Shown here one piece after another: positions 1 to 9,970 of a stretch of 10,366 nucleotides of DNA; position 1 is the stretch's first letter, and the number at the start of each line of letters is the position of its first letter. Position numbers and translations under genes: made by a program. This DNA comes from a bacterium. GTDB lineage: Bacteria > T1Sed10-126. Under the pieces are notes generated by a model that worked only from the letters and a program-made list of their open reading frames with translations, did not search any database and was not told the DNA's origin. Location: the NCBI GenBank assembly GCA_003554945.1, contig PWHN01000089.1, forward strand, positions 1 through 10,366. Reading direction: 5' to 3'.

Positions 1-3000
1 ATCCTTCTGTCCCTATTACCTCCTCCTCATTGCTTCCCTCTGTTATCTCGACTCGCTTCTCTTCGCCTCCTCCCTCATCCAATACCACAAGCTCCGCTAT
101 CTCAAAATGCTCGTCCGTCGCTGTATATTCTACTTCCACATCCTCGCCTGACTGGCGGTATACTTCCTCGGCTTCCGTCGGCTCGTGTATCTCTAACTCC
201 GGCTCCGTCGAATCAACAGTAAACTCCTGGCTGACGTCCTCATTTTCATTGCCAGCCTTATCGACAGCAGTTACTTGTATTAACGCCTCTTCGGTATCGT
301 CAGCGGCAACAGTCCACTCAAACTGAAATTCGTCTCCGCCGGTGAAATCTTGCTCCTCAATTTCCGTCCAGTTTGTTCCATCATCGGCAGAATAATCGAC
401 AATGAATTCATCGTAACCCGACTCACCGGCTTCAGTTGCCGTCCACTCAATCAATTCATCGTCGTCACCAGCCCAGTATTCACCACCTTCCGGCCGATTT
501 AAAGTTACTTCCGGCTCCTCAGTATCAACCGTAATTGCTACCTCGTCGCTGCCCTGGTTGCCCGCCTGGTCGGTCGCCCGCACCTCCAGCGTCCTTTCAC
601 CATCCTCAAGCTCAAACGTATGCGACTCTTCGCTGTCGGCGACCTCCCAGTCCTCTCCGTCCACTCTCACCTCGTGCTCTCCCAGCCCGCTTTCTCCTAT
701 CGTTGGCGTCTCCCAGCTTGCTTCAACTTCGCTTGAGTTAATATATTCTCCTTCATCCGGCGCTTCTATTTCCACCACCGGCTCCTCTGTGTCTATCGTG
801 ACCGTTACCTCGTCACTGCCCTGGTTGCCCGCCTGGTCGGTCGCCCGCACCTCCAACGTCCTTTCCCCGTCTTCAAGATCAAACTGGTGGGACTCATCAC
901 TATCGGACGACTCCCAAGTTCCTCCGTCAACGCGAACCTCGTGTGTTTCCAATCCGCTCGGCCCAATCGTCGGCGTCTGCCAGCTTGCTTCCACCTCGCT
1001 TGCATCAATATATTCCCCCTCTTCCGGTGCTTCTAATTCCACCACCGGCTTCTCTGTATCTATCGTGACCGTTACCTCGTCACTGCCCTGGTTGCCCGCC
1101 TGGTCGGTCGCCCGCACCTCCAGCGTCCTTTCCCCGTCTTCAAGATCGAACAGATGGGACTCATCACTATTAGACGACTCCCAATTTCCTCCGTCAACAC
1201 GGACCTCGTGTGTTTCCAATCCGCTCGGCCCAATCGTCGGCGTCTGCCAGCTTGCTTCCACCTCACTTGCATCAATATATTCCCCCTCTTCCGGTGCTTC
1301 TAATTCCACCACCGGCTCCTCTGTATCTATCGTGACCGTTACCTCGTCGCTATTCACGTTCCCCGCTTCATCTATCGCCTCTACTTCCAACGTTTGTTCG
1401 CCGTCGGCGAGGTCCAGTCCATAGCTTGACTCGCCTGCACCAAGCTCCGCCTCTGGATTATCGTCCACGTAAACGTTATGCTCCACAATGTCACTAAGTC
1501 CCTCGCTGGAGCTATTCCACTCAAGAGTTATATCACCGTCATCAAAAATATCTCCATCACCAGGTGACGTTACCTCGATAGTAGGCGGATCGTTATCAAT
1601 TATGAACTCATCAGTTTCATCGGTATATTCGTGTCCCACACCGTCCTCGGCTGTAAGACGCACCTGGGCGTCAGCGTGGCTGGCTGAGGGAAGATCCCAG
1701 GTATAGCTCCCACTGCCACAGGCAACAGAAGTCAGATTTACCCAGCCGTGGCCGTCATACCACTCGAGCTGACAACCGTCGTATCCCGACGGACCGGGAT
1801 CAAAAGTGTTCCACTCTATCTCCAGCTCTCCACCACCCGGTTTTACCGTGTTCCCATCCGGGTTTGTCAGCTCTACCACCGGATCCGTCCCATCAACGGC
1901 CACCTGCACATAATCGGCATAACTCCCCTCCCCCTGCCCGACGTTATCCACCACGAACAAATCAAAATAGTCCTCCTCTATCTCATCCACATCCGGCACG
2001 CTCCAGAGGTAAGACTCTTCCTCAACATCAGTGGATGTAAATATTTCGTCACCGGGGGGATACTCAACATAGCCGTAATCCCAGCCCGACGGGCCGGCCT
2101 CCTCAGCATCCCATTCAACCAGGTAGTCTGTGCCGGCTTTTATAACTTCACCGTCGGAGGGAGCGACGAGACTGGCTGACGGTTCAGTAGAATCAATCGT
2201 GTGACCAATGCTATTGTCCCAGTTACCATTACCCGCATTGTCAAAAGCGTCTACATATATTGTTCCATCAGTTGTATTGTCTTCCGGTAGTTCAATGTCA
2301 GCACTTCGAGCAGCACTTCCGTAAGTCCCAAAATTTATTGAACCATACTCGTCGGATTCATAGCGAACTTGAAAATAGTCGTAGCCCGAGGGCCCCGCAT
2401 CATCAGCTGACCATTCTACCGTTATTTCTTCGCCACCAACGTATTCCTGGTAGTTGAAGGGGCTATCTACTGAAATTTCGGGATCAGACTGGTCAATCGT
2501 GAAATCAGCAGTCTGATCCTCAGCTTCAACACCCACAGCATCAAGCGCCTCGATTCTAATGCGCATCTCGCTGCTTTCAACCCATGAACCGGGGTTCCAG
2601 GAATAACTCTGATCTCCGCAGGGAACGGTGCCAATACCATTCCAGGTTCCTCCCCCGTTAGTAGAATAATTCAGAGCACACTCAGATCCCCAGCCCCAGG
2701 GATGATTCGGATCTTCTCCCCATTCTATTTCAATTGTCTCGTCAGCGTAAATATCACCGGTGGAGGGAGAACTAATGTTAAGATGGGGGGGGTCGCGCTC
2801 TATTCTTTCAATTTCACCGTCATCACCGTCACCAGAAGCATAAGCAGTTCCGTCTGTGCTCCCACCAACATATCCACTACCTCCGTCTCCACCATCCACT
2901 GAAAGATTGGCGTCAAAACTTTTATCAGCATAACGCTTAAAAATTAATCCACCACTGCCACCTCCACCTCCACCCACAACTGCCCGATTATAATATTCTC

Positions 3001-3889
3001 CATCACTACCATCTCCCCCGTCAGCAATAAGATCAGCTCCGCCAGAAGAGTTTATATATCCAGCTTCAAGCCAGAGTGACCCACCAGCTCCTCCGCCGGC
3101 TCCGCCTCCTCCACCAGCGGCGTCTGGAGCAACTCCATCTCCAGCGGAGACATTTATTTCTGAGCCCCAATCGAGTTCAATTTCCGGCGCTATAAACTGA
3201 ACAGCCGGTCCTCCATATCCCCCCCGAGAAGGATCATGCGAACCACCATCAGCATCCAGGGCAGGTGCACTACCCCCACCTCCCCCTTCCACAACGTTAA
3301 GTTCACCAGAATTATTAGTCTGACCAACTCCACCGGCTACGTATCCTTCATTATCTTCTGTAACTCCTGCGCCTCCACCACCACTAATGCTTGCCGCTGG
3401 TGCCCGGCTGACCCCGCCGGCTCCTCCAGATGCCGAAATATATACATACGTCATTGCGACACTTGCAGAATAATCCCCCCGTTCTCCCCCGTCATTCCAA
3501 TCATTACCGTCTTCCCCTTCGGTTGCATACCAGTCGGAACTCATTGTCCGGCTAATAGTCACATAATGATCATTATCAAAGCCGCCCGCTTTGCCAGTTG
3601 CATAATGATCTCCCCAATTCGGATGGCGGGTTAATTCTCCCTGGACATGTATATAATCCTCAGCCTCGACAGTCAGGTTCCCATTTATATATACCTCACA
3701 GTCGGGAATGGTGAAGCTGGAAACCTCGTAAAGACCTGAATAAAAACCGCCACAGCTTGCTTCGTAATCTTCTGCAGACAGGGGGGACGAAAAAATTAAG
3801 AAAAATAATAAAGGAAAGATAAGGTAGGCAAAAATTTTGACACAACAATCCCCGGGGTTGAACTGACCGGAAAGCGCCCGTTTATTCAT
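1..3889 (-). CDS. Giant secreted Gly-rich / Ig-like repeat surface protein (C-terminus off window)
   Basis: The frame is open from the ATG at 3889 to the left edge, at least 1296 codons, so the gene is 3'-partial here. Residues 1-39 look like a signal peptide: K3 R4 and K18, a hydrophobic core at about 19-34, and likely cleavage after S-P-L-S-A39. Residues 40-360 are Gly-rich, with GGGG and GGAGG runs between short beta-like stretches such as GGSLWLEAG, a pattern seen in extracellular beta-helical proteins. From about 368 come nine complete Ig-like domains of 89-100 residues and the start of a tenth. Most end in an A-x-D-x-A-G-N type strand followed by V-T-I-D-T, and seven carry a G-[PE]-S-G turn. 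This resembles bacterial Ig-like domains of adhesins. The product is very acidic. No good Shine-Dalgarno sequence precedes the ATG; the in-frame stop of the upstream gene limits any longer start. It is probably cotranscribed with the 561-residue gene 33 bp upstream. An adhesin or S-layer-like role is inferred; the cell anchor, if any, lies outside the window. Confidence 0.88.
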   Translation of the reverse strand, partial: MNKRALSGQFNPGDCCVKIFAYLIFPLLFFLIFSSPLSAEDYEASCGGFYSGLYEVSSFTIPDCEVYINGNLTVEAEDYIHVQGELTRHPNWGDHYATGKAGGFDNDHYVTISRTMSSDWYATEGEDGNDWNDGGERGDYSASVAMTYVYISASGGAGGVSRAPAASISGGGGAGVTEDNEGYVAGGVGQTNNSGELNVVEGGGGGSAPALDADGGSHDPSRGGYGGPAVQFIAPEIELDWGSEINVSAGDGVAPDAAGGGGGAGGGAGGSLWLEAGYINSSGGADLIADGGDGSDGEYYNRAVVGGGGGGSGGLIFKRYADKSFDANLSVDGGDGGSGYVGGSTDGTAYASGDGDDGEIERIERDPPHLNISSPSTGDIYADETIEIEWGEDPNHPWGWGSECALNYSTNGGGTWNGIGTVPCGDQSYSWNPGSWVESSEMRIRIEALDAVGVEAEDQTADFTIDQSDPEISVDSPFNYQEYVGGEEITVEWSADDAGPSGYDYFQVRYESDEYGSINFGTYGSAARSADIELPEDNTTDGTIYVDAFDNAGNGNWDNSIGHTIDSTEPSASLVAPSDGEVIKAGTDYLVEWDAEEAGPSGWDYGYVEYPPGDEIFTSTDVEEESYLWSVPDVDEIEEDYFDLFVVDNVGQGEGSYADYVQVAVDGTDPVVELTNPDGNTVKPGGGELEIEWNTFDPGPSGYDGCQLEWYDGHGWVNLTSVACGSGSYTWDLPSASHADAQVRLTAEDGVGHEYTDETDEFIIDNDPPTIEVTSPGDGDIFDDGDITLEWNSSSEGLSDIVEHNVYVDDNPEAELGAGESSYGLDLADGEQTLEVEAIDEAGNVNSDEVTVTIDTEEPVVELEAPEEGEYIDASEVEASWQTPTIGPSGLETHEVRVDGGNWESSNSDESHLFDLEDGERTLEVRATDQAGNQGSDEVTVTIDTEKPVVELEAPEEGEYIDASEVEASWQTPTIGPSGLETHEVRVDGGTWESSDSDESHQFDLEDGERTLEVRATDQAGNQGSDEVTVTIDTEEPVVEIEAPDEGEYINSSEVEASWETPTIGESGLGEHEVRVDGEDWEVADSEESHTFELEDGERTLEVRATDQAGNQGSDEVAITVDTEEPEVTLNRPEGGEYWAGDDDELIEWTATEAGESGYDEFIVDYSADDGTNWTEIEEQDFTGGDEFQFEWTVAADDTEEALIQVTAVDKAGNENEDVSQEFTVDSTEPELEIHEPTEAEEVYRQSGEDVEVEYTATDEHFEIAELVVLDEGGGEEKRVEITEGSNEEEVIGTEG
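525..1325 (-). repeat. Three 267-bp tandem repeats encoding Ig-like domains
   Basis: Three in-frame units of exactly 267 bp (89 codons) lie at 525-791, 792-1058 and 1059-1325. By eye, the second and third differ at about 11 of 267 positions. The first is clearly more diverged but keeps the block coding for A-T-D-Q-A-G-N-Q-G. A related but older copy lies on the right from 1326. The units code for Ig-like domains at about residues 856-1122 of the giant surface protein. The absence of indels keeps the frame open, and near identity indicates recent duplication or gene conversion. Confidence 0.93.
2785..2792. repeat. Homopolymer G8 tract (C8 on coding strand)
   Basis: Eight consecutive G residues on the plus strand encode D-P-P-H (residues 366-369) at the joint between the Gly-rich region and the first Ig-like domain of the giant surface protein. 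Such tracts in surface-protein genes can change length by slipped-strand mispairing. Here a change of one base would break the frame and remove all Ig-like domains. The tract is seen; variability is inference. Confidence 0.6.
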
Positions 3890-3923
3890 ATAAAGAACCA
3901 CAACACTTAAAAAATTGAAACAT
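3882..3923 (-). promoter_or_regulatory. Possible 13-codon coupling mini-ORF between two surface-protein genes
   Basis: In the 33-bp gap, an ATG overlaps the stop codon of the 561-residue gene as TAATG. It opens a 13-codon frame (M-F-Q-F-F-K-C-C-G-S-L-Y-E) whose TAA lies inside ATGAATAA, the first codons of the giant gene. The giant gene lacks a clear ribosome binding site, so ribosomes terminating here could reinitiate on its ATG. The overlap geometry is visible, but a short frame like this can arise by chance, and translation is unproven. Confidence 0.22.
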
Positions 3924-6393: not shown

Positions 6394-6431
6394 AAAAAAG
6401 CGACGAGCCCCGTTTGGGGCTCGCCGCTTTT
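6394..6431 (-). terminator. Strong intrinsic terminator of the 988-residue gene, possibly bidirectional
   Basis: An almost perfect hairpin pairs AAAAGCG-A-CGAGCCCC with GGGGCTCG-C-CGCTTTT around a GTTT loop; the only mismatch is A/C in the stem. On the minus strand the stem is followed by a run of six T, giving a classical factor-independent terminator 30 bp after the stop codon at 6462. On the plus strand the stem is followed by four T, so it could also stop transcription entering from the left. Confidence 0.92.
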
Positions 6432-6461: not shown

Positions 6462-9428
6462 TTAAAAGATGCTCGTCACCGAATCCCAGGCACTTTCTGC
6501 TGTGTCGGTAACTGAATCCCAAGCACTGCCTGCGGTTTCAGCAACCGTGTCGAAAGCACCGCTAAAGTCAAGGCTACCGGCGGTTTCAAACTCAGCACCT
6601 ACACCAACGTAGGCACCGCCACCGACGTCCCAGCTGATACCGTCCCAGCCAATTTGGACGTCAAAGGTACCGCTGGCACCAAGTCCAACACCGGCTCTAC
6701 CTGTGGCTCCAACCTCACCGGTTACGCCACCAGCAGAGACACCAGTGCTAACTTCACCTTCGGCTCGTGCGCCAACAAAGGCTTCACCCTCGGCGCGAGC
6801 ACCAATCGCCTGACCATCGATAACACCGGCCATTACTTCACCTTCGGCAGAAGCACCGGCTTCGGCAGATACTTCACCTTCTGCCCAAGCTTCTACATCA
6901 TGTCCAGCGATCTGTTCTTCACGGCGAATTTCACCTTCGGCTGAAGCTTCCACGGTAGCGGAAATTTCACCAGAAGCACGCGCACCATAAACTTCGTGGT
7001 GCTCACCACCATCAGTGTAACCAGTTCGACCAAGTTCAGCCTCATAGGAACCTTCGACTCCAGCCGAGGCCTCGGCGGAACCTGAGTAATCAAAACCGGC
7101 AGCTTCGCCTTCAATTTCACCTTCCCAGCTTAGAAGTTCCTTTTCAAAGGAATCTTCGGCCAGGGTCATCAGCGTATAATCGTCAACCGGGCCATCAGCA
7201 CCATCCGTCAGCTCTCCACCGGATGATGCAAAATCCCAGTCAGTTTCCCAGTCAAGTTCACCTGAGTGTTCGAACAGACCGGTAATTTCGCCTCCGGAAA
7301 GAGCTGTCTGAACATTACTGAGCATTTCGTCACCAATATCGTAACGTTCGCCCAGTTCTCCGGCAGTTTCAACAAGAACGTCTTCTATCAGCTCCTGGTT
7401 CTGAAGCATTGCTTCTTCCATGTCGCCACTTTCAAGAAGCTCTCCAGCGACTCCACCGGTAGCTTCAACGGCTTGCTGGAGAAGAGCAGCTTCGTCATCA
7501 CCAAGGTCAGCGTTACGAATTACAGTTTGAGTTATGCGCTCGGCAGCGTCGGCAATATTATCCGACTCGTCCTGAAGCGCCTGGCCAAAATCACCAGTCT
7601 CCTGGTAGGCTGCAATAATGTCATCAGCCGTTTGCACGGTCTGGCCAACAGTTGTCTGGCTGTAACCATCAAGACCGGCATGTTCTGCCAGGGCTCTAGC
7701 ACTGCGATCAACAGTGCGGACAACACCTGTTCGATTAGCTTCTAAAGCTTCACTAACTGAATGTCCCTGCGCGACAGCAGAACCAATTTCAATCGTAGCT
7801 CTAATGCCGGCGTCAGCAGCCATTCCCTGCTGGTTGGTGCCTTCCAGATTATCTACAACCTGGCGACCAAGTCGTCCAGCAGCTATACCAATGTCCGTAG
7901 AGACATGGTGAATAGCGTCAGCCGGGGACTCGCCATCTGCAATTTCAGCTCCGGCCCGAGCCAGAGCACGACCACCGTATCCAAGGGAAGACGCGAGATC
8001 TTCATCCACACCAAGGCTTTCGGCAGACTCAGCAACTGTCTCTCGCATGAGCCAACCAAGGCTGTTCGCGTTATCTATGTAAGCTTCAACGGGGTCATCA
8101 CCTTCAAGAAGTGTCTCCGCCAGTTCAACAGCATTTCCTCCTACGGTTTCAGCAATGTTGTTAGCGTCAGACTCGCTAATTCCCTTCTGGAGAGCCAGAG
8201 CTCTAATACCTGAACTGAGAGCCTCGGCAAACTCGTCGGAATACTCCAGAATAGCTTCATCAACATCCTGATCACCTTCAGCAATCTGCTGCACCGTGTT
8301 TGCAAGGTCTAACGCGTTGTCACGGAACAGATCTTCAAGGTCTTCACTAACTTCACTGGTTATTTCATCGGAAAGTTCGGAAGCGTATACCTCAGCTTCT
8401 TGCGCAACATCCTGGTTCAACTGAGCAATCTCGTTCATTCGGTCCTGAACTTCCTGCTGAAGCTCTTCGCTTGCCGCATCCAGAGCGTCAGCCCTCTGCT
8501 CAGAAGTTTCTTCGTCCTCAGCGGCTTCATCCAGACGTTCTTCAACTTCTTCTTCTCTCTCGGCCGTGGCTGCTTCGGCGTCCTCATCGTCCACGGGCAT
8601 CTCGCCAATTTCCAACTGTTCCTCGTTGTTTTCAAGAGTTGCATCTCCAATACCGCTTACTTCTGTCAACTCATCTACGGAGGCAAAACCACCGTTAGCT
8701 TCACGATACTCAATAATACTCTCCGCTGTTGCTTCTCCAATCCCAGAAAGCTGTTCGAGCTGAGCCTGATTGGCGTTGTTCAGGTCAACCAGACCTTCAC
8801 CCTCATCAATAGAAGAAACCATAATGTTGTCTAAGTTGTTTTCAAGCGTGGCGGGACCAATACCGCTCACTTCAGTAAGCTCTTCAACGGATTCAAATCC
8901 GTCCATTTCTTCACGATACTCAACAATGTTTTCAGCGTAAGCCTCGCCTACTCCATCCAGACGGGTAAGCTCTTCAACTGAGGCGTGATTGATATCTACA
9001 TCAAGTTCACCTGCTTCAAAATCATCGCTTTCTTCATACAGATCATCGCGAATGTATCCAAGACTGGATTCAATATCTTCATCAGCCTGGATTGTCACTA
9101 CTACGTCCTCTAACGTATGCGAGGGAACGTCAAGCCCATGGTCATCGTATACCGATGTAACTGTTCGGGCCAGCGTCTCCTCTTCAATAAGACGCATAGC
9201 GTTTTCAAAATCACCAGCCGCTAGAATTTCTGCTGCTTCGTCAATCGTAGCACCACTTACCTCTAGACCAGCTGATGCTGCCTCTTGGGCCAGAAGTTCT
9301 TCGTGAGACTCGTAAGCATGCGCCGGCTGCGTCATAATAGCCGTAAAAGGCTGCAGCACAAACATGAACATCGCAAGCACCATGAAGCTCACGATCGACT
9401 TCTTCACCCTTTCTGATCTTAATAACAT
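6462..9428 (-). CDS. Secreted acidic protein: double ComEA-type HhH, helical repeats, EGE repeat region
   Basis: This is a 988-residue protein of novel-looking architecture. Residues 1-38 form a signal peptide (basic R4-K10, hydrophobic core 11-30, cleavage after A-H-A38). Two ComEA-type helix-hairpin-helix units follow at about 143-203 and 213-273, each with D-[IL]-N, an L-x-G-[VI]-G hairpin, Y-R-E, and a second S-G-I-G hairpin (G159, G189, G229, G259). Residues 280-360 are highly charged and helical, probably coiled coil. Residues 361-720 hold at least six degenerate helical repeats of 56-58 residues, each marked by G-[DEH]-x3-[EDQ]-A (G385, G443, G499, G555, G612, G668); a related unit at G72 precedes the HhH pair. 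Residues 768-948 repeat (A)EGE with Gly/Ala-rich beta-like spacers. The tail repeats S-A-W-D-S-V. There is no transmembrane anchor beyond the signal and no catalytic motif that I recognise. HhH units of this type bind DNA non-specifically in ComEA, so extracytoplasmic DNA binding is plausible. It is monocistronic, with its own RBS and terminator. Confidence 0.9.
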   Translation of the reverse strand: MLLRSERVKKSIVSFMVLAMFMFVLQPFTAIMTQPAHAYESHEELLAQEAASAGLEVSGATIDEAAEILAAGDFENAMRLIEEETLARTVTSVYDDHGLDVPSHTLEDVVVTIQADEDIESSLGYIRDDLYEESDDFEAGELDVDINHASVEELTRLDGVGEAYAENIVEYREEMDGFESVEELTEVSGIGPATLENNLDNIMVSSIDEGEGLVDLNNANQAQLEQLSGIGEATAESIIEYREANGGFASVDELTEVSGIGDATLENNEEQLEIGEMPVDDEDAEAATAEREEEVEERLDEAAEDEETSEQRADALDAASEELQQEVQDRMNEIAQLNQDVAQEAEVYASELSDEITSEVSEDLEDLFRDNALDLANTVQQIAEGDQDVDEAILEYSDEFAEALSSGIRALALQKGISESDANNIAETVGGNAVELAETLLEGDDPVEAYIDNANSLGWLMRETVAESAESLGVDEDLASSLGYGGRALARAGAEIADGESPADAIHHVSTDIGIAAGRLGRQVVDNLEGTNQQGMAADAGIRATIEIGSAVAQGHSVSEALEANRTGVVRTVDRSARALAEHAGLDGYSQTTVGQTVQTADDIIAAYQETGDFGQALQDESDNIADAAERITQTVIRNADLGDDEAALLQQAVEATGGVAGELLESGDMEEAMLQNQELIEDVLVETAGELGERYDIGDEMLSNVQTALSGGEITGLFEHSGELDWETDWDFASSGGELTDGADGPVDDYTLMTLAEDSFEKELLSWEGEIEGEAAGFDYSGSAEASAGVEGSYEAELGRTGYTDGGEHHEVYGARASGEISATVEASAEGEIRREEQIAGHDVEAWAEGEVSAEAGASAEGEVMAGVIDGQAIGARAEGEAFVGARAEGEVSTGVSAGGVTGEVGATGRAGVGLGASGTFDVQIGWDGISWDVGGGAYVGVGAEFETAGSLDFSGAFDTVAETAGSAWDSVTDTAESAWDSVTSIF
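6481..6546 (-). repeat. 33-bp duplication encoding the S-A-W-D-S-V tail
   Basis: GAATCCCAGGCAC at 6481 and GAATCCCAAGCAC at 6514 are 33 bp apart on the plus strand and start two diverged copies. They encode T-A-[GE]-S-A-W-D-S-V-T-[DS] twice at the C-terminus of the 988-residue protein, predicted to be amphipathic helices each with one Trp. Confidence 0.75.
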
Positions 9429-9436
9429 CTCAAAAA

Positions 9437-9441
9437 CCTCC
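9437..9441 (-). promoter_or_regulatory. Ribosome binding site of the 988-residue secreted protein
   Basis: The minus strand reads AAGGAGG followed by an eight-base spacer (TTTTTGAG) and ATG at 9428. It is a near-ideal site, consistent with high expression of a secreted protein, and it confirms the start codon. Confidence 0.88.
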
Positions 9442-9970
9442 TTAAAGTGATTAATTTTTCTTAAACTACACCAAATTCAATTCACCTATTAATAAAGCAG
9501 GTTCCGTTCCAGCACATATTCATTTCCTTCTATCAGGGCATATTTTCTTTTAATTCAGTTAACCAAAAAATCCTATATCGCTCTCAGAGCCTGCGTAAAC
9601 GGTAGTAAGGACAATTTTCTAATAAATACCTTGAATGGCAGGAAAATTTTTAAAGCGTTAAATATAATTTATCTTCCACAGCTTTAAACAAAGATATTTG
9701 CAGGTTTGCAACAAATTTCTAATTTTTTTCTTTTTTGCAACATTGAGTTCGTTCCGAAAACATTCCTATCCTGCCAGAGGAAATACAACGGGGGTGAACT
9801 GGATCGGCGGAGAGGATTTAGGAAGGAGGCTTAATATTCAGAAAAAAGTCAGACACAAAGAAGCCGATGAGACAAATGCTCCTGAACTATTGATGATAAA
9901 TCCTGAATTTCTCACAGTTAGTTGATATAATCGTGATATCTTACGGATTTGACTGCAATTTATTCTTAAC
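9442..9970. other. Divergent intergenic region between the 988-residue gene and acpS
   Basis: About 530 bp of mostly AT-rich DNA should carry the promoters of two divergent genes. For the leftward gene I see no good -35/-10 pair. For the rightward gene a TATAAT lies at 9926-9931. A plus-strand frame at 9793-9925 (GTG, 44 codons, ending just before that -10) follows GGGG loosely and includes an internal GGAAGGAGG at 9821-9829 with no standard start codon suitably placed after it. This could be a decayed gene or a chance frame, and I do not call it. No tRNA, CRISPR or insertion-sequence end is visible. Confidence 0.5.
9924..9940 (+). promoter_or_regulatory. Candidate acpS promoter -10 within a small inverted repeat
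   Basis: A perfect -10 hexamer TATAAT is at 9926-9931, about 50 bp before the acpS start. The -35 position (around 9902-9908) is weak. GATAT at 9924-9928 and ATATC at 9936-9940 form a 5-bp inverted repeat around the -10, which could be an operator half-site pair or chance. A separate TTGACT at 9949-9954 has no matching -10. Confidence 0.4.

Follow-up and report, generated by a model that had tools for sequence, protein, structure and literature searches.

The stretch of DNA analysed here, referred to as the window, is the whole of contig C107 (10.4 kb); the genome to which it belongs has 2.2 Mb and a completeness of 93.5%. A single gene on its minus strand encodes an exported, highly acidic protein of 988 amino acids, and the following features were assigned to this gene, from its ribosome-binding site to its terminator.

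9437..9443, minus strand: Shine-Dalgarno sequence AAGGAGG (consensus), 8 nt upstream of the ATG, read from the sequence
6462..9428, minus strand: gene for the 988-aa exported protein, ATG start; pI 4.05, K+R 3.8%, D+E 23.3%
9315..9428, minus strand: signal peptide, residues 1-38, with an AHA cleavage motif at residues 36-38, read from the sequence
9093..9269, minus strand: helical repeat R0 (residues 54-112), preceding the HhH units; 10.1 bits with a leave-one-out HMM, 0/300 shuffles
8817..9002, minus strand: ComEA-type (HhH)2 unit 1, approximately residues 143-204; TIGR00426 71.7 bits, hairpins GVG/GIG intact
8613..8807, minus strand: ComEA-type (HhH)2 unit 2, approximately residues 208-272; TIGR00426 64.0 bits, hairpins GIG/GIG intact
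8316..8582, minus strand: Glu/Ala-rich acidic linker, residues 283-371, probably helical as judged from its composition
7281..8315, minus strand: six tandem helical repeats of about 57 aa (R1-R6), residues 372-716, from the HMM and a model with two helices per repeat
6678..7175, minus strand: Ala/Gly/Glu-rich beta-type region, residues 752-917, with long antiparallel strands predicted by single-sequence AlphaFold2
6468..6563, minus strand: putative C-terminal amphipathic helix, residues 956-987, from the sequence and a low-confidence AlphaFold2 model
6396..6431, minus strand: intrinsic terminator with a 16-bp stem and a U run, 30 nt past the stop codon

The gene is real, as it combines a Shine-Dalgarno sequence and a signal peptide with a strong terminator directly after it. 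The signal peptide consists of a basic n-region, a hydrophobic core of about 20 residues and the AHA motif, and the secreted open reading frame of the original prediction is confirmed. The terminator region folds with -35.9 kcal/mol over a 71-nt stretch (z = -6.1), and with this strong terminator the gene is probably monocistronic. An operon shared with the downstream genes was rejected, since both of these, encoding a 561-aa protein and an Ig-repeat protein, sit past the terminator. The 561-aa protein is exported, and its gene precedes by 21 bp that of the Ig-repeat protein (window 2-3901), an incomplete, very acidic exported protein of 1300 aa that is rich in Gly in its N-terminal part and contains many Ig-like repeats. 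A similar gene pair is found in the sister genome (L038), consisting of a 28% homologue of the 561-aa gene and, after it, a long surface-type gene rich in Gly; an HhH gene next to this homologue is absent.

The identity of the HhH module is well defined. Both units exceed the curated TIGR00426 cut-off of 53.1 bits in the profile search that had been proposed along with the original prediction, and the HHH_3 profile matches the protein with E=4.3e-43. Two HhH units of the ComEA pattern at a distance of 70 residues had been predicted; pattern and register, which is exactly 70 residues, are correct, but each unit comprises two HhH motifs, giving four motifs in total. With two GxG hairpins per unit, all four hairpins are intact. 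The units are 59% identical to each other, and hairpin glycines and core residues are kept in both. The protein misses the cut-off of the whole-protein ComEA model TIGR01259 (127.3 vs 152.35 bits). ComEA proteins are further characterised by a signal peptide or membrane anchor and an extracytoplasmic function, and here a signal peptide was read from the sequence.

Outside the HhH pair, about 700 residues of helical and beta-type repeats had been predicted. The helical part was substantiated as a repeat of about 57 residues with a motif around GD..EA, which occurs six times C-terminal to the HhH pair and a seventh time, as R0, N-terminal to it. When each copy was scored with an HMM built from the others, either none or one of 300 shuffles matched the real copy, and every copy outscored all other segments of the protein. 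In both genomes of the family, no other protein matched the repeat profile. Structure prediction of residues 280-988, also proposed earlier, delivered helices and strands at low pLDDT and led to no assignment of a known fold. AlphaFold2 without alignment reached a mean pLDDT of 47 for the helical repeats, the topology of which is uncertain, and Foldseek found no solved fold matching the helical model at E<=0.001. For the beta part the mean pLDDT was 54.7, with blocks mostly at 57-80 and lower values at the end; the predicted strands are 16-32 residues long in this low-confidence model. The C-terminal helix had a pLDDT of about 40. Foldseek matches to membrane-attack/perforin-like pores were rejected as meaningless (TM ~0.1, rmsd ~40 A).

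Searches with residues 280-988 retrieved no convincing relative from 98 genomes, GTDB contigs, viral contigs, plasmids and phages. The one weak match links the beta-type region to a protein of 438 aa encoded in an unrelated genome (L034:628-1944; E=8.7e-4), which has a similar Ala/Gly/Glu-rich beta-type region, a likeness that may be compositional. This resemblance is what could be cited for a role in delivery or translocation within a secreted toxin system of the polymorphic-toxin type; the original prediction had considered the delivery part of a larger secreted system. Such a role is very improbable, as no catalytic C-terminal domain, immunity gene or secretion gene was recognised, the gene is apparently monocistronic and the structural matches to pore proteins carry no weight. 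A polymorphic toxin was rejected, there being no toxin match in Pfam or NCBIfam and no recognised immunity gene.

The orphan character of the regions outside the HhH units, the low-complexity acidic segments and the proximity of a second acidic surface-type gene with Ig-like repeats would also agree with a surface protein or adhesin that diverges rapidly and has its HhH units as mere stable spacers without a specific ligand. However, hairpin glycines and core have been kept at only 59% identity between the units, which suggests that the HhH domain is under selection, and this explanation is therefore regarded as unlikely.

The 988-aa gene is absent from the sister genome G001, the sole family-level relative, which was identified as the metagenome-assembled genome CSSed10_354m (PWOD01000096.1). 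The code CSSed10 belongs to a soda-lake sediment data set (PMC6146748), and the organism of the window is therefore probably also haloalkaliphilic. Such a life would fit the acidic exported proteins of its genome.

ComEA units had been expected to lie in short proteins that have few further domains. Among the matches listed from 241 genomes, several proteins with two to four units are indeed short (<=388 aa), but fusions are common, both in the genomes searched and in published work on ComEA-type modules joined to other exported domains (PMC4777378). The fusion partners found comprise secretin, clostripain-type peptidase, 5'-nucleotidase, PLD, Ser/Thr kinase and metallo-beta-lactamase domains. 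The long proteins that were examined combine one strong unit with a recognised domain (a secretin, with further weaker units, a clostripain-type peptidase or a 5'-nucleotidase), and among the matches listed no open frame longer than 400 aa other than the window protein has two units above the cut-off. Fusion of the module thus appears to be ordinary, and the combination in the window protein appears to be new but orphan. In other genomes, at L058:1217-3043, L057:2216-4120, L045:1376-2890 and L044:2534-3799, ComEA-type units are combined, by insertion or fusion, with a 5'-nucleotidase, a clostripain-type peptidase, a PLD protein and a Ser/Thr kinase. A metallo-beta-lactamase domain is fused to a ComEA-type unit on contig C20, and a similar protein adjoins such a unit on contig C35 (L010:157-1473; L011:2584-4140); a fusion of this type has been proposed as the donor of HhH domains to DNases (PMC4777378).

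The original prediction had noted that no competence gene is visible nearby. This is true of the window, where none was found over the 10.4 kb of the contig, but not of the genome. In total, the genome contains 14 TIGR00426 matches in about eight or nine proteins and one 725-aa open frame, which we take to be possibly a Tex-like cytoplasmic protein. Contig C47 encodes a secretin (Secretin, AMIN), ComEC (PF03772, 2.2e-35), a triple-unit ComEA-type protein, a 349-aa protein and a double-unit ComEA-type protein that is a probable lipoprotein; the latter four follow one another in this order (L009:2314-8081), as they do in the sister genome (L039). The 349-aa protein has no Pfam match and looks metallo-beta-lactamase-like. 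On contig C117, a ComEA with SLBB and HhH domains adjoins a gene reading as recR, and DprA and PilT are both encoded in the genome. With this PilQ-ComEC-ComEA locus, the SLBB-HhH ComEA, DprA and PilT, the organism looks equipped for competence, as judged from its gene content.

The secretin on contig C47, a few genes upstream of comEC, is of the type IV pilus type and itself carries C-terminal ComEA-type HhH units (L042:1556-6400; HHH_3 5e-12). Its secretin part has a 47% identical counterpart in the sister genome. HhH-secretins are also encoded by two genomes from an unrelated family, one with 2228 aa and three HHH_3 stretches and one as a 2061-aa relative (L055:6735-13418; L056:1482-7664; L061). 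No description of a fusion between a secretin and ComEA-type HhH units was found in a limited literature search, and a DNA ratchet within the outer-membrane pore is a testable idea for such proteins.

In a tree of 44 units, which is based on few columns and leaves many other forks unresolved, the two units of the window protein are sisters (99/87) within a 14-unit clade (95/98) that holds only units of this genome and of G001, which represents a sister genus. This branching shows that a duplication of the module took place within the lineage.

The residues by which ComEA grips DNA are known from two organisms. In Bacillus subtilis, the exchanges K164A and K199A reduce transformation more than 100-fold, and K193A and K197A reduce it 2-4-fold (PMC9747964). 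In Vibrio cholerae, DNA binding in vitro requires the lysine pair K62/K63, and R71, the sole other important residue found, is thought to be structural (PMC3879209). In the alignment, the positions of K164, K193, K197 and K199 are occupied by Y, A, N and L in unit 1 and by T, A, N and E in unit 2, and those of K62/K63 by A-Y and A-T. The arginine of the YRE motif, which is kept in both units, we take as the equivalent of R71. A basic residue is lacking at all four B. subtilis positions in only 4 of 43 units compared, among them the two of the window protein, which with net charges of -14 and -13 are also the most acidic of the set, whereas unit 3 of the triple-unit protein beside ComEC retains an arginine at each of the K164 and K199 positions. 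Canonical gripping of DNA by these units is therefore doubtful, and the extracellular DNA binding that had been predicted for them finds no support in the key residues. The other two lysine-less units come from proteins encoded at the ComEC loci of this genome and of the sister genome, and further exported proteins of this genome are equally acidic. HhH motifs also contact phosphates via main-chain atoms. Given the lysine-less units at the ComEC locus, the equally acidic exported proteins and the intact hairpins, charge alone does not exclude DNA binding.

These considerations bear on the main rival explanation, in which the protein is an extracellular or periplasmic scaffold for DNA capture. 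Its modules would bind double-stranded DNA via the intact hairpins at high salinity, and its repeats would hold the DNA at the cell surface or in a matrix; the DNA would either be fed to the competence machinery or serve as adhesive or nutrient. Membership in the ComEA module family, the intact GxG hairpins and the presence of PilQ, ComEC, ComEA, DprA and PilT in the genome speak for this explanation, and the 5'-nucleotidase and PLD fusions elsewhere fit extracellular nucleic-acid handling. However, the lysines required in both studied ComEA proteins are all gone (PMC9747964, PMC3879209), the units are extremely negative, and the gene is unlinked to the competence locus and absent from a sister genome with an orthologous ComEC/ComEA locus. 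DNA capture is somewhat unlikely. Of the extracellular DNA-binding scaffold originally predicted, export and the double ComEA-type module remain; the case for DNA binding is unproven and suffers from the loss of the key residues.

The best reading, which we hold tentatively and with slightly less than even confidence, is that of an orphan, lineage-restricted, acidic exported scaffold in which diverged ComEA-type modules would serve docking. It would be periplasmic or surface-attached. Its two (HhH)2 units were copied within the lineage from the ComEA-module family that also serves the ComEC locus, and have kept the fold and the GxG hairpins while losing the basic residues for gripping DNA. From this we infer that the units most likely serve docking or self-association, with at most weak DNA contacts, that the 57-aa helical repeats may act as a spacer or rod, and that the beta region and the terminal helix may form an envelope-facing or adhesive part.

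This candidate scaffold can be compared with several known systems. With ComEA of B. subtilis and Geobacillus stearothermophilus (PDB 8dfk/8dss) and of V. cholerae it shares the (HhH)2 module, the hairpins and export, but it has two modules instead of one, lacks the contact lysines, has about 700 additional residues and is not encoded beside comEC; an SLBB domain was not found in it. The 291-aa triple-unit and 220-aa double-unit proteins of the ComEC locus belong to the same lineage-specific clade and are likewise exported and acidic, but they are short and without repeats, and in most of their units one or more of the four DNA-contact positions are still basic. Fusions of the module to metallo-beta-lactamase and to the DNaseI-like DNaseTA (PMC4777378) resemble it in joining the module to an exported domain in a salt-tolerant setting; these carry an enzyme, whereas none was recognised in the window protein. 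EEPD1 (PDB 9yi2), the best PDB sequence match, also has two tandem (HhH)2 units, but according to its name possesses an endonuclease/exonuclease/phosphatase-type domain, and the repeat region of the window protein is unmatched.

ComEA-type modules may have moved from competence to a large exported scaffold, where they would assemble proteins instead of binding DNA and thereby have switched from a DNA to a protein ligand within the ComEA family of one genome, although this further step is rather unlikely. An uncultured lineage akin to a soda-lake sediment genome has expanded the ComEA module to about nine exported proteins, and the loss of DNA-contact residues in some copies would offer a natural series for testing what DNA binding at high salt demands of the HhH module. 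It also calls for caution, as not every ComEA-type HhH domain should be read as a DNA receptor.
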